A stretch of 64,000 nucleotides of DNA, taken from positions 124,001 to 188,000 of the forward strand of contig NZ_QBKR01000004.1 of assembly GCF_003054245.1 (NCBI RefSeq), given 5' to 3'. This document shows, in pieces, positions 29,638-56,252 of this stretch; within the stretch, counting starts at the first letter, position 1, and every line of letters starts with the position of its first letter. A program made the translations under genes and the position numbers. The notes beneath the pieces are model-generated. The model had not been told where the DNA came from, did not search any database, and was given only the letters and a program-made list of their open reading frames with translations. Source of the stretch: Melghirimyces profundicolus. Lineage in GTDB: Bacteria; Bacillota; Bacilli; Thermoactinomycetales; DSM-45169.

Positions 29638-31002
29638 TCACCACTCCCCTTCCGCCGGATACTCTTGTTGGATCCCTTCAAGTTCCTCCCTCAGCGGATG
29701 CCGGCCGAAAAAAGAGTGCATCACGATCACCGTGCCGACGAGGAGCAGGAGATAGAGCCCGATGAACACGACGAACCAGAGTCCCAATCCGGCGGCATCC
29801 GTTACCGCCTCCGACGTCCGCTGGTAATGATACACCGTCCAGGGCTGCCTTCCGCTGCAGGTGAAAACCCACCCGAATTCAATCCCCAACATCGATAACA
29901 GGCCGGAAGGAGCCAGAGTCCCCAACAGCCAGCGCGGCAGGCTCGTTTTCTTCTTCCCCCGACGACGCCATTGGAGGATCCAGGCCAGGAAGGAGAGAAA
30001 GATCAGAAGGACCCCGATGACCACCATCAGGTTGAACAGGGTATGGACGTAAAAGGGGGGCCAGTTTTCCCTTGGGAAATCGTTCAACCCCTTCACCACC
30101 GCATCAAACCGGTTGTCGGCCAGAAAGCTCAGGGCCCACGGAATCTTGATCGCCCCCACCAGCTCCCCTTTGTCCGGATCGACGATTCCCCCTAAGGCCA
30201 GGGGGGCATAGGCCCGGGTTTCAAAATGGCCTTCGGCGGCGGCCAGCTTTTCCGGTTGGTAGTCATACAACACCTGGCCTGCGGCATGGCCGTTCCAAGC
30301 GGTGGCGAGGGACATGAGCCCCCCGACGGCCAGGGACATCATCAGGGCCTTTTTGTGGTATCCGTACTCCCGATCTTCCGATTTCCGGTGAAGCATCCTC
30401 CAGGCGGCCAGCCCGGCGATGGCGAAGGCCCCGGTCATGTAAGCGGAGGCCAACACATGAAGGGCCGCCGACGGAAAGCTCGGGTTGAAAAACGCGTTCA
30501 GGGGATGAACCTCGGTGATTTTTCCTCCGCTTGCTTTGAATCCGGTCGGAGTGTTCATCCAGGCGTTGGCCGAGGTGATCAACACCGCGGAAGCGCTCCC
30601 CCCCAAAGCCACCAGGAACACACTGACGATCCGGGTGATGGGGGAGAGGCGGTCGGCAGCGTACACATAGATGGACATAAACAGCGCTTCCAGGAAAAAC
30701 GCGAACAACTCGATCTGGAAGGGAAGGGCGATCACTTCCCCCACCACTTCCATGAATTTGGGCCACAAAAGCGACAGTTGCACCGCCACGATGGTACCCG
30801 ATGGGATGGCCACCCCCAACAGGATGGCCTGAGCCTTGGTCCATCTCTTGGCCATCACGGTGTAATCCCGGTCCCGGGTGATCTGGTAAACGATCTCCGA
30901 CACCAGAATCATAAAGGGCAGTCCCACCCCCAGGGTGGCAAAAATGATGTGAAAAGCCAGCGAGCTCCCGAACAGCGAACGCGCAATCGTTAATTCATCC
31001 AT
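29638..31002 (-). CDS. cydA: Cytochrome bd-type quinol oxidase subunit I
   Basis: A 454-residue CydA homologue with about nine helices. The heme-ligand His18 lies in LAFHIIFATLGVGLPF, the second His in LHVLASAYMTGAF (about 182), and GRQPWTVYHYQRT (about 389-401) carries the conserved GRQPW motif. The Q-loop after FETRAYAPLA is short, as in cyanide-insensitive or YthA-type oxidases. ATG at 31002 was chosen because of AAAAAGGTGAGGATC; a GTG three codons earlier is less likely. A full repeat element begins only 20 bases before this start, so promoter and leader must be inside or beyond it. Confidence 0.93.
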   Translation of the reverse strand: MDELTIARSLFGSSLAFHIIFATLGVGLPFMILVSEIVYQITRDRDYTVMAKRWTKAQAILLGVAIPSGTIVAVQLSLLWPKFMEVVGEVIALPFQIELFAFFLEALFMSIYVYAADRLSPITRIVSVFLVALGGSASAVLITSANAWMNTPTGFKASGGKITEVHPLNAFFNPSFPSAALHVLASAYMTGAFAIAGLAAWRMLHRKSEDREYGYHKKALMMSLAVGGLMSLATAWNGHAAGQVLYDYQPEKLAAAEGHFETRAYAPLALGGIVDPDKGELVGAIKIPWALSFLADNRFDAVVKGLNDFPRENWPPFYVHTLFNLMVVIGVLLIFLSFLAWILQWRRRGKKKTSLPRWLLGTLAPSGLLSMLGIEFGWVFTCSGRQPWTVYHYQRTSEAVTDAAGLGLWFVVFIGLYLLLLVGTVIVMHSFFGRHPLREELEGIQQEYPAEGEW

Positions 31003-31021
31003 GATCCTCACCTTTTTCCTG

Positions 31022-31330
31022 GAAGCGTTGTGAAAAAGTGAGCGTCAGCATTTACCCAAAGTCGCTCCGGCTGCACTCACAGAGCACAAGTCTCGCCTGG
31101 GTCGCTTGCGCTCCCCGGTCTCGCTATGCTGTCCTGCAGAGATGGTTGCACTGTCCGCTCCAAATCATCCTGCTGCGGGCAGGGGCAAAACGCCTGCGGA
31201 TGCAACACAGAGAAGCTTTTGCCCCTGAACGCCCTGGCAGGCTGATTCTCCGCTGGGCAGGACAGCAAAGTCGCTATTTTGGGTAAACGCTTTCCCTTTT
31301 CTCGAAACGAACATTCAATCACAACGCTTC
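31022..31330 (+). repeat. Palindromic interspersed repeat, copy 4 (full length, type copy)
   Basis: A 309-bp element with 12-bp terminal inverted repeats GAAGCGTTGTGA and TCACAACGCTTC. Inner inverted pairs are CAGCATTTACCCAAA-like with TTTTGGGTAAACGCT, TGCTGTCCTGC with GCAGGACAGCA, and a central CAGGGGCAAAA with TTTTGCCCCTG. It has no coding capacity. It lies directly upstream of cydA. Confidence 0.95.
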
Positions 31331-31405
31331 TAGCGGTTCCATCTTAAGGTGAGCGAAGGATTGGAATCCTATTCCAATCCGAGGTCGCTGTCGGAAAATC
31401 GCAAC

Positions 31406-31438
31406 AAAAAACCCGCCTTCCCCATGGGCCGGCGGGTT
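31406..31438 (-). terminator. Intrinsic terminator of the 31437 amidase gene
   Basis: AACCCGCC pairs with GGCGGGTT (31410-31417 with 31431-31438), followed by T-rich TTTTTG on the minus strand. The stem overlaps the stop codon. Confidence 0.8.
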
Positions 31439-32375
31439 AATTTTCCAAGTGAAAAAAGCTGTATTTGACGTTTGGCGTCCAGGCATGGGAATCCCGGTAA
31501 TCCCAATACCGATGCCGGCTGTTGACGGTGTGGGCGTTCACCAGTGGCATGCCCATGGGATCAACTGCGGTGACGATGGTATTGTGCTGCCAACGCCCGT
31601 TCCCATCCCAGTCATAGCAGATGACATCCCCCATTTGCAGTTCCTGGGGGGAGGAAACCCTCCGGGCACCCATGGCGCCGCCGGAGGCAAGGTACCGTTG
31701 CAGGCTGTTGGCCACGGCCCAGCTGTAGCTCCAGTTTTCCCATGCTCCTTTGTACCACCATCCCCGGTCCCGGCGAAAGGCGAAGTCCATGGGGATCTCT
31801 CCGGCGTGGATGCATTGGGAGATGAAGTTTGTGCAATCATCCTCCATTTTCCGGTAACGGGGATTGGCCCCGTTCCACCATGCTTCGGCATATTGAACGG
31901 CCTTGATTCGATTGTACCCTTTGCCGGAAACCCCCCCTTCTTCGGGGGGCTGGTAATAGGTCCATCCTTGGTCCACATCGGTGTCCATCGTCTCATCCAG
32001 TCGGCATTCATCGATGGACCACCCGTCGCTTCCTTCCGTGAGCGACACCCGGTAGCCGTTGATTTCCTCCTGTTCAAACAGCCGGTCGGACAAGGCGTAG
32101 AGAAAACGTTGGTGAACCACCAACCGCATCCATACCTGCGATTCGTCCTTTTCCTCCCGGACCACCCGGATCCGGGTCTCCCCCTTGACCGGTTTGATCT
32201 CACGTTCCCGCTGCTGTTCCCGGATCCTCAACCACCGGTTCCGCTCATTCTCCACCCAGTCCGCATCCCCGTCCAGCACCCAATCGAAGAGGCGGTCCGG
32301 TTCCCCTTCCACCCACAGCTGGTTCTGCCCGCGGAACCAGGTGGTCACGGGCTGCCTCCAAGAACGATTTTCCAT
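31437..32375 (-). CDS. Amidase-domain protein (PF12671-like), cytosolic form
   Basis: A 312-residue protein without signal peptide. The N-terminal half (about 1-140) is an acidic/basic charged domain of unknown role. The C-terminal amidase domain (about 150-312) has catalytic Cys181 in DDCTNFISQCIHAG, the YNRIKAVQYAEAWWNGANPRY entry motif and a His264 in RWQHNTIVT. It shares that layout with the repeat-bearing protein at 23645 (YNRQKAVDYAYQWWNKRNPEY, YDCTNFISQ). ATG at 32375 follows a GAAGGGACGG site; a GTG two codons earlier is possible. The target, wall peptide or other amide, is unknown. Confidence 0.85.
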   Translation of the reverse strand: MENRSWRQPVTTWFRGQNQLWVEGEPDRLFDWVLDGDADWVENERNRWLRIREQQREREIKPVKGETRIRVVREEKDESQVWMRLVVHQRFLYALSDRLFEQEEINGYRVSLTEGSDGWSIDECRLDETMDTDVDQGWTYYQPPEEGGVSGKGYNRIKAVQYAEAWWNGANPRYRKMEDDCTNFISQCIHAGEIPMDFAFRRDRGWWYKGAWENWSYSWAVANSLQRYLASGGAMGARRVSSPQELQMGDVICYDWDGNGRWQHNTIVTAVDPMGMPLVNAHTVNSRHRYWDYRDSHAWTPNVKYSFFHLEN

Positions 32376-33296: not shown

Positions 33297-35042
33297 TTAA
33301 CCGGTTTGACTCTCCTCCATCCCCTGTTGCAGCCGGTACATCTTGTGATAGAGACCCTGATGGGCCAAGAGCTCCTGATGGGTCCCCCGCTCCAGGATCT
33401 CGCCCCGGTGGAGCACCAGAATCAAGTCCGCATCCTGCACCGTGGACAGGCGATGGGCGATGGCGATCGTGGTCCGCCCCTTCCGCATCCGGGAGAGCGC
33501 TTCCTGAATCTTCTCCTCCGTCTCCGTATCGACGTGGGCCGTCGCCTCATCCAACACCAGGATGCGGGGGTTCAGGGCCATGGTGCGGGCAAAGGAGAGA
33601 AGCTGCCGCTGACCGCTGGAAAAGGTGGCCCCCCGTTCCCCGACCGGTTCCCGGTACCCTTTGGGCAGTTTTTCGATGAAGCTGTCCGCTTGGACAAACC
33701 GGGCCGCCTCCCGGATCTCCGCATCCGTCAGGTCCGGATGGTGAAACCGGATGTTGTCCTCCACCGTCCCCACAAACAGGAACGGATCCTGCAACACCAG
33801 TCCCATCTTCCTCCTCAATTCATCGTCCCGATACCTCTCGAGAGGAACCCCATCGATGGTGATCCTCCCCTTCTTCAGGGGATAAAAGCGCATCAACAGG
33901 TTGATGATGGAGGTTTTTCCGCTCCCGGTATGGCCGACGAGGGCCACGGTCTGACCGGGTTCGGCGGTAAAGGAAATGTTTTTCAGCACATCGGTCTTCC
34001 CGTCATAGGAGAAGGTGACGTTGTCGAAAACGATGCGACCCCGGGTGATCTCCGGATTTCCCGATCCTTCCCGGGCAGGCGCCAGACGCTCCTCGTCCAG
34101 CAGTTCAAACACCCGGGAGGCGGAAACGAGGGATTGCTGGAGAAAAGAGAGTTGCTGCATCATCTGGTTGACCGGCTCGAACATCCGGTCCAGAAGGTTG
34201 ATAAAAGCATAGAGCACCCCGATCTGAACGGCACTTTCCTCCATGCCGATGCCAAAAAAAGTGAGAACGGCCATGATCGTCAGAAGATAAATCAGGTCGA
34301 CGGCGGGCCGGAGAAGCAGTCCGTTCAACCGGGTGGTTTGCATGTTGGCAAGATAATGCTCCCGGTTGGTCACCCCGAATTCCCGCTTCAGGCGTCCTTC
34401 CTGGCGGAGGGCCTGGATCACGTTCATTCCCTGGATCGATTCCGAAAGCTTGGCGTTCAATTCGCTGAGCTTTCGCCGCACCTCTCTGTAAGCCCGATGG
34501 CTGAGACGCCGATAAACCACCATGAGTCCGCAGATCAGGGGAAGGAGCACGAGGCAATAGGCCGCCAGCTCCACATTCAGCAGAAACAGGGCGACAAAAA
34601 CCCCCAGGATCAGGACAAGATTCTGAACGAAGGTGGAGAGGACGCTGACAAAAAGCTCCTTCACCGCCTCGGTGTCGTTGGTGATCCGGGACACCAAGGC
34701 CCCGCCTGGCATCCGGTCGAAAAAGGAAAGACCCAGGTGCTGGACTTTTCCGAATACGTCGACCCGCAACTGCTGAATCACGCGGAGAGCGATTCGGTGA
34801 AAGGTGAACTGCTGGAAATACTGCATCACCACTCCTGCCAAGAGGAGACCCAGATAAGCGCCCCCCAGGAAAACCAGGGGTTTCGCGGGAAATATCCCCG
34901 GGGTGAGATAATCATCGATGAAGATCTTGGCCAACAGCGGACCCGCCACTTCCGCTCCGGTCGCCAGCAATAACAGGATAAAAGCACAGATCAGAGTCTT
35001 ACGATGAGGTTTGAGGTAACCGAGCAACCGCCTCATCACCAT
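33297..35042 (-). CDS. bmrD: Heterodimeric ABC multidrug exporter subunit BmrD-like
   Basis: A 581-residue half-transporter with six helices (about 10-300) and an ATPase domain (about 330-575). Walker A is GHTGSGKTS, the Q-loop is VLQDPFLF, the signature is degenerate (SSGQRQLLSFART, LSGGQ replaced by FSSGQ), Walker B is ILVLDEATAHVD, and the switch is IAHRLST. The sequence pattern matches B. subtilis BmrD (YheH) but lacks its long periplasmic insert. With BmrC it forms a multidrug exporter. ATG at 35042 follows AAAGGAGGTGGGGCC, and its first 44 bases overlap bmrC. Confidence 0.9.
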   Translation of the reverse strand: MVMRRLLGYLKPHRKTLICAFILLLLATGAEVAGPLLAKIFIDDYLTPGIFPAKPLVFLGGAYLGLLLAGVVMQYFQQFTFHRIALRVIQQLRVDVFGKVQHLGLSFFDRMPGGALVSRITNDTEAVKELFVSVLSTFVQNLVLILGVFVALFLLNVELAAYCLVLLPLICGLMVVYRRLSHRAYREVRRKLSELNAKLSESIQGMNVIQALRQEGRLKREFGVTNREHYLANMQTTRLNGLLLRPAVDLIYLLTIMAVLTFFGIGMEESAVQIGVLYAFINLLDRMFEPVNQMMQQLSFLQQSLVSASRVFELLDEERLAPAREGSGNPEITRGRIVFDNVTFSYDGKTDVLKNISFTAEPGQTVALVGHTGSGKTSIINLLMRFYPLKKGRITIDGVPLERYRDDELRRKMGLVLQDPFLFVGTVEDNIRFHHPDLTDAEIREAARFVQADSFIEKLPKGYREPVGERGATFSSGQRQLLSFARTMALNPRILVLDEATAHVDTETEEKIQEALSRMRKGRTTIAIAHRLSTVQDADLILVLHRGEILERGTHQELLAHQGLYHKMYRLQQGMEESQTG

Positions 35043-36795
35043 CGGCCCCACCTCCTTTTTCGATGAGGGACTCCAGATACTGACGCCGAACCATCCAGGC
35101 GTACCACCCCTCTTGCTCCAACAACTCCCGGTGGGTCCCCCGTTCGATAACGGCTCCGTCCTCCAGTACGAGGATTTCGTCGGCATGCTCGATCCCCGAC
35201 AGCCGGTGTGCGGCGATCAAGGTCGTTTTTCCGGCCCGTTCTTTTCGCAAAGATTCAAGGATCTTCTCCTCGGTTTTGGCATCGACAGCGGACAGGGAAT
35301 CATCCAAGATCAGAATTTCCGGATCCAACAACAGGGCACGGGCGATGGAAAGACGCTGTTTCTGACCGCCGGAGAGGGTGACGCCACGCTCCCCGACAAG
35401 GGTGTCATATCCTTCTTCCAACCGGAGGATGTCCTCATGGACCCGGGCGAGACGGGCCACGCGCTCGATTTCCCCGTCAGTGGCTTCCGGCCGGCCGAAA
35501 GCGATGTTCTCCCGGATCGTCGCGGAAAAGAGGAAATGATCCTGGGGAACGTAGCCGATCGCCGACCTTAAAGCCGACAGGGTGTACTCTTCCACGGGAA
35601 TCCCCCCGATGGAAACGGAACCCGGGGGACCTTCCACTTCCCGGAGCAGCAACCGGAACAGCGTCGTCTTCCCGCTGCCGGTCTTACCCACGACACCCAA
35701 AGTGGCTCCCTGCGGCACGGTCACTTGAACCCGGTGGAGGGCCGGCGTTTCCGCCTCCGGATAGGTAAAGCGGGAAAGGTTAAAGCGGATTTCCCCCGAA
35801 GCCGGCCGGGTGACAGCCCCCTCCCGGTCGGAGATGTCCGGTTCCACGTTCAACAGGGATCGGATGCGGTCGTAGGAGGCACGCCCCCGCTGCATGATGT
35901 TGGTCAGAAACCCGAAGGCCAGCATCGGCCAGATCAGCTGGCCGAGATAGAGGGTGAACTGGGTCAATTGCCCGATCGTCATCTCCCCGTTCGTGACATA
36001 CACCGCCCCGAAGGCGACGGTCAGAAAAAAGGAGACCCCTACGATCAGGGAGATGGTGGGACCGAACAGGGCATCGATCCGGGCCACGGAGATGTTCTTC
36101 TCCACCACGTCAAGAGACAACCGATGAAAGGATCGCTTCTCCGCTTCTTCCCGGCCGAAAGCTTTCACCACCCGCACTCCGGAGATGTTCTCCTGCACCT
36201 TGTTGTTAATGTCGGAAAAAGCAGCCTGGGCCTTCAGAAACCGCTCGTGCATCCATTTTCCGTACCGGCCGACCGCCCAGGCCATGAACGGCATCGGGAC
36301 CAAGGCGATCAGGGTGAGTTTCCAGCTGATGAAAACGGCCATGGACAGGACCACCAATCCCCCGAGCACCAGCGAATCCACAAAGGTGAGAACTCCTTCC
36401 CCCGCCGTCACCCGGACCGCCTGAACGTCGTTGGTGGCGTGGGCCATCAGGTCACCCGTGCGCCGGCGGTTAAAAAAACGGGGAGACATGCGGGTAAAGT
36501 GGGCGTACAGCTCCCCTCTGAGCTGTTGCCCCAAGCGGAAAGCGGCGCCAAACAGAAGAATCCGCCAGAAATAACGCAATATATACATGGTTATGCCGGC
36601 CACGGCCAACAGGGTCAGCCACTTCAGCAGAAAGCCCGTGGTCAACTTCTCCCCCTCGATGGCATCCACCACCAACCGGACGACATAAGGAGGGAAAATC
36701 TCCAGGAGCGCCACCACCAGCAAGACCCCCACACCGAGGATGTAACTCTTCTTTTCCTGTTTGAAAAACCACCAGAGGTCCCGAAAAATGCGCAT
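34999..36795 (-). CDS. bmrC: Heterodimeric ABC multidrug exporter subunit BmrC-like
   Basis: A 598-residue half-transporter with six helices (about 15-300) and an ATPase domain (about 335-575). Walker A is GKTGSGKTT, the Q-loop is GYVPQDHFLF, the signature is a consensus LSGGQKQRLSIARA, Walker B is ILILDDSLSAVD, and the switch is AAHRLS. The Asp instead of catalytic Glu after Walker B (ILDDS) marks the non-canonical site typical of this partner (B. subtilis BmrC/YheI). ATG follows AGAAGGGGAACGCAT. Transcription likely starts near 36909 and passes through an attenuator-like leader. Confidence 0.9.
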   Translation of the reverse strand: MRIFRDLWWFFKQEKKSYILGVGVLLVVALLEIFPPYVVRLVVDAIEGEKLTTGFLLKWLTLLAVAGITMYILRYFWRILLFGAAFRLGQQLRGELYAHFTRMSPRFFNRRRTGDLMAHATNDVQAVRVTAGEGVLTFVDSLVLGGLVVLSMAVFISWKLTLIALVPMPFMAWAVGRYGKWMHERFLKAQAAFSDINNKVQENISGVRVVKAFGREEAEKRSFHRLSLDVVEKNISVARIDALFGPTISLIVGVSFFLTVAFGAVYVTNGEMTIGQLTQFTLYLGQLIWPMLAFGFLTNIMQRGRASYDRIRSLLNVEPDISDREGAVTRPASGEIRFNLSRFTYPEAETPALHRVQVTVPQGATLGVVGKTGSGKTTLFRLLLREVEGPPGSVSIGGIPVEEYTLSALRSAIGYVPQDHFLFSATIRENIAFGRPEATDGEIERVARLARVHEDILRLEEGYDTLVGERGVTLSGGQKQRLSIARALLLDPEILILDDSLSAVDAKTEEKILESLRKERAGKTTLIAAHRLSGIEHADEILVLEDGAVIERGTHRELLEQEGWYAWMVRRQYLESLIEKGGGADGDEAVARLPQTSS

Positions 36796-36813
36796 ATGCG
36801 TTCCCCTTCTGTC

Positions 36814-36906
36814 CTAAAATCGGCTAAAAAAATACGCCCGCCGGCAGTGCAGCTCCCGGGCGGGACGGAGCCGTTCGGAACAAATACCGGATACAAAAAG
36901 TGCCAT
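36814..36906 (-). CDS. Candidate leader peptide of bmrC-bmrD
   Basis: A 30-codon frame (starts MALFVSGICSERL, ends FFSRF) spans the bmrC leader. It covers both the antiterminator and terminator stems and stops 18 bases before bmrC. No strong ribosome binding site precedes it, and its ATG lies close to the predicted transcription start, so leaderless initiation would be needed or the promoter lies slightly further upstream. B. subtilis bmrB is a leader peptide at the same place that controls bmrCD by ribosome-mediated attenuation. An alternative frame from 36917 overlaps bmrC. Confidence 0.45.
   Translation of the reverse strand: MALFVSGICSERLRPARELHCRRAYFFSRF
36825..36864 (-). terminator. 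Attenuator terminator in the bmrC leader
   Basis: On the minus strand CCCGCC (with a bulged C then GG) pairs with CCGGCGGG, followed by CGTA and a T7 run, all between the promoter and bmrC. A terminator before the first gene implies conditional read-through. Confidence 0.75.
36850..36873 (-). promoter_or_regulatory. Antiterminator stem in the bmrC leader
   Basis: CGGCTCC pairs with GGAGCTG (one G-U pair). Its loop holds CCCGCC, the 5' arm of the terminator. The two structures therefore exclude each other. Confidence 0.55.
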
Positions 36907-36915
36907 TCCATATCC

Positions 36916-36924
36916 ATTATAGCA
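36916..36924 (-). promoter_or_regulatory. Extended -10 promoter of bmrC-bmrD
   Basis: TGCTATAAT on the minus strand is a perfect extended -10 element. No good -35 box is present at 17 bases. It lies just after the ogt terminator. Confidence 0.6.
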
Positions 36925-36960
36925 CGCTGTATAAGCCCGGCGCAGTTGTTTCAGACAAAC

Positions 36961-36988
36961 AAAAAAGGGGCGGACGACTGCCCGCCCC
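36961..36988 (-). terminator. Intrinsic terminator of ogt
   Basis: GGGGCGG pairs with CCGCCCC with a 7-base loop, followed by T6 on the minus strand. Confidence 0.9.
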
Positions 36989-37059
36989 GTCGAAATCGAC
37001 AGGTGAAGCGTTGGATCCCAAACGGTAAAAACGAATAAAAGTGCAAAAAGCAGGGGTGG

Positions 37060-37599
37060 TCATGCCCGGGCCTGGCGGGGTAGCGCTCCCTCCAGTCCGA
37101 GCAGGAATTCCTTGATTTCAAGGCCTCCCCCATAGCCAACGAGGGATCCGTTGGAGCCCACCACCCGATGGCAGGGAACAATGATCGAAACCGGGTTCCG
37201 GTTGTTAGCGCCGCCGACGGCCCGCACCGCTTTGGGTGCCCCCATCGCCTGAGCCACATCTTTATAGGAGCGGACCTCCCCGTAGGGAATGGTTTGGAGC
37301 TGTTGCCAAACCAGCTTTTGAAATGCGGTTCCATAAAGGTCCACAGGCACATCGAACCGGCGGCGATTCCCTTCGAAGTATTCGTTGAGTTGCTGGGCAA
37401 CGGATCGGAGTTCCAAGTCGTTCCGCTCCAACTGGATGGAGCCGAGCCACTCCTTAGCCCATCGTTCCAGGAACAGGGGGGCCTGTGCCCCTTTCGCGAA
37501 GTCAAGTCTGCAAAGCCCCTTTCCTGTCATGGCCAGCGTAATGGGACCGACCGGGCTGTCCGTTTCACTCCACACGAGGACTCGTGAAGCTGAGACCAT
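37060..37599 (-). CDS. ogt: Methylated-DNA-protein-cysteine methyltransferase
   Basis: A 179-residue suicide repair protein that removes alkyl groups from O6-methylguanine. The active site is VPCHRVVGS (acceptor Cys, about residue 147), preceded by the DNA-binding helix-turn-helix in IPYGEVRSYKDVAQAMG and AVGGANNRNPVSI. The N-terminal domain (1-75) is of Ogt type. ATG at 37599 follows AGAGGTATT and overlaps nothing, with queG ending eight bases earlier, so the two genes are in one operon. Confidence 0.93.
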   Translation of the reverse strand: MVSASRVLVWSETDSPVGPITLAMTGKGLCRLDFAKGAQAPLFLERWAKEWLGSIQLERNDLELRSVAQQLNEYFEGNRRRFDVPVDLYGTAFQKLVWQQLQTIPYGEVRSYKDVAQAMGAPKAVRAVGGANNRNPVSIIVPCHRVVGSNGSLVGYGGGLEIKEFLLGLEGALPRQARA

Positions 37600-37606
37600 A
37601 ATACCT

Positions 37607-38782
37607 CTAAGCCTCCCTGTACGTTCTGTGATTCGCCGTTTCTTCCCCACGGCATTCATCCAGGGCCTTTTCGATTTCCTCCTTCACTTTCTGATCCCGT
37701 TCTGTTTTCCCGGCGAGGCTCAATGCATCCGCTGCTTCCGGTCCGCCGATCCTTCCCAGGGCCCAAGCCGCCGTCCCTCTGATCACGGGGCGGGGATCTT
37801 CTTTCAAAAGGCGGATCAAATCCGGAACCGCGGTCCGGTCCCGAAACCGCCCGAGGGCGATGATGGCGTTTCTCTGAATCGGTTTTTTCCCTCTCCAGGA
37901 CCCCGCCATCGAACCGAAGCGCTCGCGGAACTCCCGGTTGCTCAGTTGAAGCAGGGGTTTCAAAAGGGGTCGTACCTTTTCGGGATCCGGTGTAAATTCC
38001 TCGTGGTGCGTGAAGTTTTTCTTCCGGTTGTAGGGGCAGACCGCCTGGCAGGTCTCAAAACCGTAGAGGTATCCTCCCAACAGATCCCGGTACTCCGGGG
38101 CAAGGAACCCCTTGGTCTGGGTCAGGTAGGCCAGACAAGCCCGGGAGTTGAGTTGCCCGGGAGCAACCAGGGCCCCGGTGGGACAGGCATCCAGACAGGC
38201 GGTGCAATCGCCGCAGGCTTCGGTCACCGGCTGGTCCGGCGGAAGGTGGACATCGGTGATCATCTCGCCGAGATACACCCAGGAGCCGAACTCCGGCGTG
38301 ATGATCGAGGTATTTTTACCGCTCCACCCGATCCCGGCCCGTTCAGCCACGGCCCGATCCGAAAGAGCGCCGGTGTCCACCATCACGGTCGCCGCCGCCC
38401 CGGGAACCAGTTCCAGCAGCTTGGCTTTCAATCCTTCCAGTTTCCGCTTCAGCACATTGTGATAATCTTCTCCCCAAGATGCCCGGCAAAACACCCCCCT
38501 GTATGCTCCGGGTTTGGAAACGGGCGGCTGTTCCATCTTGGTGGGATAAGCGAGGGCGATGGCAATGATGGATCGGGCTTCGGGAAGAATTTTCCGCGGG
38601 TCGGTCCGCTTATCCAGGTCCGGTTCCTCAAAACCCGACTCAAACCCGGCTTCCCGATGGCGCTTCAACCGTTCTTTCAACTCGGTGAAAGGTTCCGCCG
38701 ACGCGAATCCGATTTTGTCGATTTTCAGCCGTTTGGCCTCCATCTGCAACGCTTTTTTGATCTCGGCCGCCTCCATTTTCAT
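37607..38782 (-). CDS. queG: Epoxyqueuosine reductase QueG
   Basis: A 391-residue cobalamin-dependent enzyme that reduces epoxyqueuosine to queuosine in tRNA, the last step of queuosine synthesis. The N-terminal half contains RASWGEDYHNVLKRKLE and VDTGALSDRAVAERAGIGW (cobalamin site). Two [4Fe-4S] clusters are ligated by CGDCTACLDACPTGAL and by Cys residues in CLAYLTQ and ETCQAVCPYN. A HEAT-like C-terminal part (about 290-391) binds tRNA. ATG at 38782 follows GAAAGGAGGGCGGGGCG. It precedes ogt. Confidence 0.95.
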   Translation of the reverse strand: MKMEAAEIKKALQMEAKRLKIDKIGFASAEPFTELKERLKRHREAGFESGFEEPDLDKRTDPRKILPEARSIIAIALAYPTKMEQPPVSKPGAYRGVFCRASWGEDYHNVLKRKLEGLKAKLLELVPGAAATVMVDTGALSDRAVAERAGIGWSGKNTSIITPEFGSWVYLGEMITDVHLPPDQPVTEACGDCTACLDACPTGALVAPGQLNSRACLAYLTQTKGFLAPEYRDLLGGYLYGFETCQAVCPYNRKKNFTHHEEFTPDPEKVRPLLKPLLQLSNREFRERFGSMAGSWRGKKPIQRNAIIALGRFRDRTAVPDLIRLLKEDPRPVIRGTAAWALGRIGGPEAADALSLAGKTERDQKVKEEIEKALDECRGEETANHRTYREA

Positions 38783-55982: not shown

Positions 55983-56252
55983 GAAGCGTTGTGAAAAAGT
56001 GAGCGGCAGCATTTACCCAAAGCCGCTCCGGCTGCACTCACAGAGCACAAGTCTCGCCGGGGTCGCTTCACTCCCGGTCTCGCTATGCACTCACAGAGCA
56101 CAAGTCTCGCTTGGGTCGCTCGCTCCCCGGTCTCGCTATGCTGTCCTGCAGAGATGGTTGCACGGTCCGCTCCGCCGGGCAGGACAGCAAAGTCGCTATT
56201 TTGGGTAAACGCTTCCCCTTTTCTCGAAACGAACATGAAATCACAACGCTTC
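55983..56252 (+). repeat. Palindromic interspersed repeat, copy 5 (full ends, rearranged middle)
   Basis: A 270-bp element bounded by GAAGCGTTGTGA and TCACAACGCTTC. The ACTCACAGAGCACAAGTCTC core is present twice in tandem, and the central CAGGGGCAAAA arm pair is deleted. It lies between the tetR start and the cbiX stop. Confidence 0.93.

Follow-up and report, generated by a model that had tools for sequence, protein, structure and literature searches.

A probable transcription attenuator before the bmrCD-type exporter genes of Melghirimyces profundicolus

How are the bmrC and bmrD homologues of Melghirimyces profundicolus controlled, and does a leader peptide take part? In Bacillus subtilis, the translated frame bmrB, 53 residues long, contains a terminator along with an antiterminator and an anti-antiterminator, both predicted, and induction of bmrCD by lincomycin requires that bmrB be translated, according to the available part of the published account (PMC4191407). 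For M. profundicolus, an earlier reading of the DNA (hereafter the original prediction) had proposed a leader of the same form, with a 30-codon frame and two mutually exclusive stems. Our analysis covered the whole 64,000-nucleotide stretch that holds the locus, called 'the window' below, and was extended to related genomes. All features of the bmrC/bmrD leader were located directly in the sequence, on the minus strand of the window. The energies given throughout are model values, and an assumed anti-Shine-Dalgarno sequence was used.

The two genes downstream of the leader are, judged by their sequence, homologues of BmrC and BmrD, as had been proposed. The bmrC homologue (34999..36795, minus strand; Pfam PF00664 and PF00005), one half of a heterodimeric ABC exporter, has YheI/BmrC as its top match among solved structures (588 bits), the next matches being full-length chains of the P-glycoprotein type (484 bits). 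For the bmrD homologue (33297..35186, minus strand), the other half of the exporter, the top match is YheH/BmrD (533 bits). Both NCBIfam models, SmdA and SmdB, matched the pair below their cut-offs. The open frame of bmrD overlaps bmrC by 188 nt, and its start has probably been set too far upstream.

Upstream of the leader lies a gene for a 6-O-methylguanine DNA methyltransferase (37060..37659, minus strand; Pfam PF01035 and PF02870), which has a terminator of its own (36967..36988, minus strand; -18.9 kcal/mol, TTTTTTGTT) preceding the bmrC promoter. This promoter is marked by an extended -10 element, TGCTATAAT (36916..36924, minus strand), upstream of which no recognisable -35 was found. Assuming the usual spacing between -10 and +1, we place the start of transcription near 36909, and the leader is then about 114 nt long up to the bmrC start at 36795. 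The extended -10, the 30-codon frame, a hairpin followed by seven T residues and a 7-bp stem were all found where the original prediction had put them.

Between the promoter and bmrC, beyond the terminator of the previous gene, is a hairpin resembling an intrinsic terminator, with its tract TATTTTTTT (36826..36867, minus strand; hairpin 36867-36835, -18.5 kcal/mol, T7 at 36832-36826). This hairpin is only moderately better than chance: under a permissive rule, 46 of 400 dinucleotide shuffles of the leader gave a terminator as good, and the folding of the whole leader was no better than that of its shuffles (z 0.32; equalled by 120 of 200). In other leaders of the family, the same shuffle test gave 9/400 for a sister species of the same genus (L085), 32/400 for L095 and 108/400 for L083. 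The context of the hairpin could also be assessed, using 200 genes that have 110 nt or more upstream, taken from 464 kb of this genome. Fourteen of these 200 genes have a hairpin that reaches -14 or better and ends 20 to 60 nt before the start. The combination of a strong hairpin with an extended -10 upstream of it (one mismatch being allowed at three positions) was encountered at bmrC only, that is, at 1 of 200 sampled genes, while one further gene combined an extended -10 with a weaker hairpin of -9.0. Moreover, the sister leader has the same extended -10 and a terminator of -16.2 that ends at -36, compared with -39 in the window, and the sequence of its arms differs. This context, 1 gene in 200 and the same offset in the sister, is stronger evidence than the hairpin energy alone, and an intrinsic leader terminator before bmrC is likely.

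The second stem proposed as the antiterminator also exists. It is a competing 7-bp hairpin, CGGCUCC/GGAGCUG (36850..36873, minus strand; arms 36873-36867 and 36856-36850, -10.6 kcal/mol), which encloses the 5' arm of the terminator. In folds of the growing transcript, this rival stem is completed about 15 nt earlier than the 3' arm of the terminator; by the time the U-tract is complete, the model puts the terminator ahead by 2.6 kcal/mol (-23.6 compared to -21.0). Of the mutual exclusion that had been claimed, the two stems are present and the terminator is likely, but the stability of the rival stem is only moderately above chance: among 2000 shuffles in which the terminator arms were kept fixed, 117 gave a stem as stable and 838 one as long. 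A hairpin at the 5' end of the leader coexists with the rival stem in the growth series, so that there is no exclusion between these two, and no anti-antiterminator excluding the rival stem was seen in this series. When the growing sister leader was folded, no comparable rival stem appeared.

Alignment of bmrC leaders from related genera, which had been suggested as a check, gave a divided answer. The sister species has its terminator at this offset too, but the sister leader is the only one to align, and it does so poorly, which is too shallow a basis for covariation or for showing compensatory conservation of the two stems. A DNA search with the window leader against 42 genomes of the order returned the window itself and short weak matches in 4 genomes. 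Searching the whole window with Rfam at the gathering threshold gave two tRNAs only and nothing in the bmrC leader; at E values up to 10, the interval 36600-37100 gave one match, Chloroflexi-1 sRNA, at 14.3 bits (gathering 80), located upstream of the leader. At the curated threshold, the leader matches none of the cis-regulatory RNA families described in Rfam.

We then considered the family of the window genome. A bmrC homologue at E 1e-200 or better was found in 9 of its 10 genomes, and TGNTATAAT is present upstream of bmrC in 8 of the 9 leaders; L086 is devoid of the promoter element, though it has a strong terminator. Four of the 9 leaders have, at the right distance, a terminator that reaches -14 or better, and the other 5 have no strong one. 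In four leaders (L084, L087, L088 and L089), the promoter element is kept but no hairpin reaching -9 ends in the 60 nt before bmrC.

For a broader view, a set of close relatives was assembled, consisting of the best 80 of 532 encoding stretches plus 30 loci from 61 genomes (49 of which matched). The 110 loci with a start were reduced to 105 by dropping identical or short leaders, and then to the 98 with 110 nt or more of upstream sequence. Seven other leaders are outside all counts, except that one of them, L149, joined one start-site pairing test. Neighbouring genes, whose start codons were picked by a simple rule, served as controls. Terminators of -14 or better lie near the start in 22 of 98 bmrC leaders and in 7 of the 117 control genes (P = 4e-4); at -16 or better the figures were 16 of 98 and 7 of 117 (P = 0.013). 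These P values, like those given below for the same set, are optimistic because related sequences are not independent.

We conclude that bmrCD is probably controlled by a transcription attenuator, because the terminator sits between the promoter and bmrC, beyond the terminator of the previous gene; because promoter and hairpin are found together at 1 gene in 200, and the sister has a terminator at the same offset; because terminators are enriched across bmrC leaders and present in 4 of 9 within the family; and because the terminator beats the rival stem at the end of the U-tract, the rival being the first to form. Starting from the promoter, hairpin, T-run and rival stem, which are seen directly, we infer the termination, the regulation and the signal as follows. 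RNA polymerase would start at the extended -10 promoter and make the leader of about 114 nt. In the basal state it would mostly stop at the hairpin and U-tract, which immediately precede the ribosome-binding site of bmrC; read-through would lead to production of the pump. The weaker 7-bp hairpin, with the 5' arm of the terminator in its loop, could favour read-through. By analogy with bmrB of B. subtilis, an antibiotic-slowed ribosome is a plausible inducing signal; the 30-codon frame is at most a candidate for the sensor. Counting against an attenuator are the 46 of 400 shuffles, the five family members that have no strong terminator, the missing promoter element of L086, a rival stem that is marginal and has no comparable counterpart in the growth series of the sister, and the lack of an Rfam match at the curated threshold.

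Several of these observations would also suit a hairpin that is weak or inert, bmrCD being expressed constitutively from its promoter. Shuffled leaders give hairpins as good, hairpins of this kind stand at a similar distance from the start in 14 of 200 genes, and the four family leaders named above keep the promoter element with no hairpin of -9 or better near bmrC. Since the terminator of the sister stands at the same offset, where only 9 of 400 shuffles are as good, and since terminators are enriched across bmrC homologues, we regard constitutive expression as fairly unlikely.

If bmrCD is indeed attenuated, the question becomes that of the sensor; the two peptide readings discussed below, in which either the first five codons or all 30 are used, are sub-cases of the attenuator that differ in this respect. 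The 30-codon frame, MALFVSGICSERLRPARELHCRRAYFFSRF (36814..36906, minus strand), has its ATG at about +4. In the predicted window transcript no Shine-Dalgarno was found for it, and its conceptual translation has no Pfam or NCBIfam match. At the same place, the sister species has GTG GCA CTT TTT GTA TGA, a frame of five codons. Both the start codon and the length of the 30-codon frame are ordinary for this genome. The genome contains 103 TGNTATAAT sites, compared with 30 for a reversed control pattern, and therefore not all 103 are promoters; an ATG or GTG is located 7 to 10 nt past 20 of these 103 sites (21 matches), and among the 18 such sites that were read, 6 have frames of at least 30 codons, the bmrC leader frame included.

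At about +4 lies a 16-nt block, ATGGCACTTTTTGTAT (36891..36906, minus strand), with GTGGCACTTTTTGTAT at the same place in the sister species. Fifteen of these nucleotides, RTGGCACTTTTTGTAT, are identical in the two species, are preceded by A or G, and occur at one site in each genome. Exact matches to the block were confined to the window and sister genomes among the 42 genomes of the order, the other 40 having none; sites with one mismatch were found in 4 other genomes, on contigs other than that of their bmrC homologue. Outside the 15-nt block, the leaders of window and sister barely align. The block may act as peptide, as RNA or as initial transcribed DNA.

One interpretation is that only the first five codons count, with a start near the 5' end (ATG, or GTG in the sister) and drug-bound ribosomes stalling on MALFV. 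The base before the identical block, A or G, preserves a start codon in both species, and the block has a single site per genome; in addition, 4 of 8 family promoters, from two genera, have an ATG or GTG 8 to 9 nt past the -10. A peptide of this length could be enough, since a three-codon uORF controls vmlR in B. subtilis (PMC9226507). However, the start has no Shine-Dalgarno, and two leaders of Kroppenstedtia type (L083 and L084) keep the T-rich block with no start codon there. With an ATG or GTG at 20 of 103 promoter-like sites of the genome, moreover, 4 of 8 in two genera is a weak argument. We consider it unlikely that the five codons are the sensor. It is distinctly doubtful that a bmrB-type attenuator has been reduced, in this genus, to a near-5'-end start codon and a five-codon MALFV peptide with no Shine-Dalgarno, the ribosomes that load at the extreme end of the leader being what senses translation-blocking drugs.

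The original prediction had the whole 30-codon frame translated as a BmrB-like peptide, an antibiotic-stalled ribosome leading to formation of the alternative stem and blocking of the terminator. The frame and the stems are present, the genes are homologues of bmrCD, and bmrB of B. subtilis is described as working in this way (PMC4191407). This identification of the frame was nevertheless not borne out: besides the absent Shine-Dalgarno, the ATG at about +4 and a start codon and length that are ordinary for the genome, the frame has shrunk to five codons in the sister, L083 and L084 have no start codon there, and no anti-antiterminator excluding the rival stem was seen. The start site is also unpaired, with 430 and 431 of 500 shuffles giving a pairing with the downstream leader as good as that in the window, and 277 of 500 in the sister. 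A 30-codon leader peptide at this locus is weakly supported, and we hold the full model to be improbable.

In the two Kroppenstedtia-type genomes, the 5' block was seen to pair over a long stretch with the ribosome-binding site of bmrC; the long-range pairing considered for the window was rejected as not significant (140 of 1000 shuffles as good). It is very improbable that the block is an RNA element controlling translation by such pairing, with or without the terminator, for although 26 and 51 of 1000 shuffles were as good in L083 and L084, the figures are 140 for the window, 129 for the sister, and 605, 401, 988 and 155 for L087, L088, L089 and L095, and a T-rich sequence pairs readily with a Shine-Dalgarno.

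Leader peptides were also looked for across the family. In 8 family transcripts, no uORF led by a Shine-Dalgarno of -7 or better was found, starts of this strength being located only within 7 nt of bmrC's own start (L083, L084 and L095); weak uORF candidates (Shine-Dalgarno of -5.5 to -6.0) are present in L087, L089 and L095. The family may keep the terminator with no recognisable leader peptide.

The attenuator proposed here can be compared with three described systems. It resembles bmrB-bmrCD in having homologous pump genes with a promoter, a leader terminator and an alternative stem before bmrC (PMC4191407), and differs from it in that the window frame has no Shine-Dalgarno and is not kept in the sister, and in that no anti-antiterminator was found. 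Genes and terminator would thus be those of a bmrB-type system and the leader frame would not, and for lack of this frame the locus is not filed under that type; it may still work like it. The nearest simpler model would be the attenuator of patAB in Streptococcus pneumoniae, an intrinsic terminator directly before the first gene, with a predicted antiterminator and anti-antiterminator, in a leader of 67 nt; the reported inducers are fluoroquinolones and DNA damage, and the available part of the account names no leader peptide (PMC4319486). Shared with the window are the ABC multidrug exporter, the terminator placed directly before the exporter gene past its own promoter, and the short leader, whereas pump and host differ and patAB has a predicted anti-antiterminator (PMC4319486). 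The leader of B. subtilis vmlR also has a terminator with alternative structures, as the window does; there, the three-codon uORF that suffices for control has a Shine-Dalgarno, which the window frame has not, an anti-antiterminator is present, a stem partly sequesters the gene's own ribosome-binding site, and the target is an ABCF factor, as far as the available part of that report describes it (PMC9226507).

The original prediction also held that control is conserved in form. This is better supported across the 98 bmrC leaders, in which terminators and uORFs led by a Shine-Dalgarno are both enriched, than at the window locus, where no such uORF is found. Such uORFs were present in 24 of 98 bmrC leaders, compared with 8 of 117 neighbouring genes (P = 3e-4). 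Pairing of the start site with downstream sequence (-14 kcal/mol or better, equalled by at most 10 of 500 shuffles) was detected in 9 of these 24 leaders and in 1 of the 8 control uORFs, one of which had no room for the test; counted per leader, this is 9 of 98 compared to 1 of 117 (P = 0.004). L102 (13/500) and L013 (23/500) came next, and the remaining 13 of 24 had no pairing. In an earlier subset of 14 uORF leaders (13 of the 24 plus L149), 10 were at 25 of 500 shuffles or fewer.

Close to bmrC, each of the eleven pairing leaders has a hairpin (-9 or better) that leads into a T-rich tract. Their uORFs have about 17 to 42 codons, and the Shine-Dalgarno and start codon pair with a downstream segment. 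Six of them (L008, L013, L016, L020, L024 and L029) come from Scopulibacillus, Tuberibacillus, Sporolactobacillus and Terrilactibacillus, and five (L096, L097, L098, L102 and L110) from other families of the window's order. When antiterminator pairing, that is, pairing of a segment with the 5' half of the terminator, was tested singly in each case, 4 of 10 uORF leaders were at 50 of 1000 shuffles or fewer. By their sequence, the eleven look like leader-peptide attenuators. With them, the window leader has in common the gene that follows and, shortly before this gene, a terminator-like hairpin, but it has neither a uORF led by a Shine-Dalgarno nor start-site pairing. Leader-peptide control is better supported in the related families than at the window locus. 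Among open-licence PMC papers, we found no previous description of leader peptides upstream of bmrC homologues in species other than B. subtilis. A search of 16 loci with Rfam gave no family in a bmrC leader, and Bacillaceae-1 RNA at the edge of L008.

Some further features of these leaders were recorded. The uORFs of L097, L102 and L110 have a related peptide in common; the bmrC start of L110 has probably been set too early (the match begins at residue 51). In L149 (genome G032), the bmrC homologue is preceded by a uORF led by a Shine-Dalgarno, MMKLKSVLKVYFPKQVSNFCYG, whose start-site pairing is equalled by 27 of 500 shuffles, and by a terminator-like hairpin; a SAM riboswitch is nearby on the other strand. 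Ten leaders (L005, L006, L009, L010, L092, L093, L100, L101, L104 and L111) have a tandem pair of terminator-like hairpins before bmrC, several of them with GAAGCC/GGCTTC or CCATRGG/CCYATGG stems, and GGTTGC is recurrent in the first hairpin of several.

Elsewhere in the window, we noticed a dispersed repeat of about 108 to 160 bp, partly in tandem and ending in a hairpin followed by TTTTTCACA, at 56010-56170 and at about 31020-31170 (both minus strand), as well as at about 11440-11640 of L138. It lies upstream of several genes, one of which encodes subunit I of a cytochrome bd oxidase. In this genome a search returned 56 matches, with 40 scored out of 252 first-look candidates, and the repeat was matched in 9 of 10 genomes of the family. 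Rfam matches in the region 30900-31500 were sub-threshold only.

Attenuators allow drug pumps to be switched on only when the drug is present. The sensor used at this locus could be sought by comparing related leaders in one laboratory strain. Our survey suggests that bmrB-like control of the bmrC pump family extends beyond B. subtilis, and that several families have it in a compact design, in which the Shine-Dalgarno of the uORF is sequestered.
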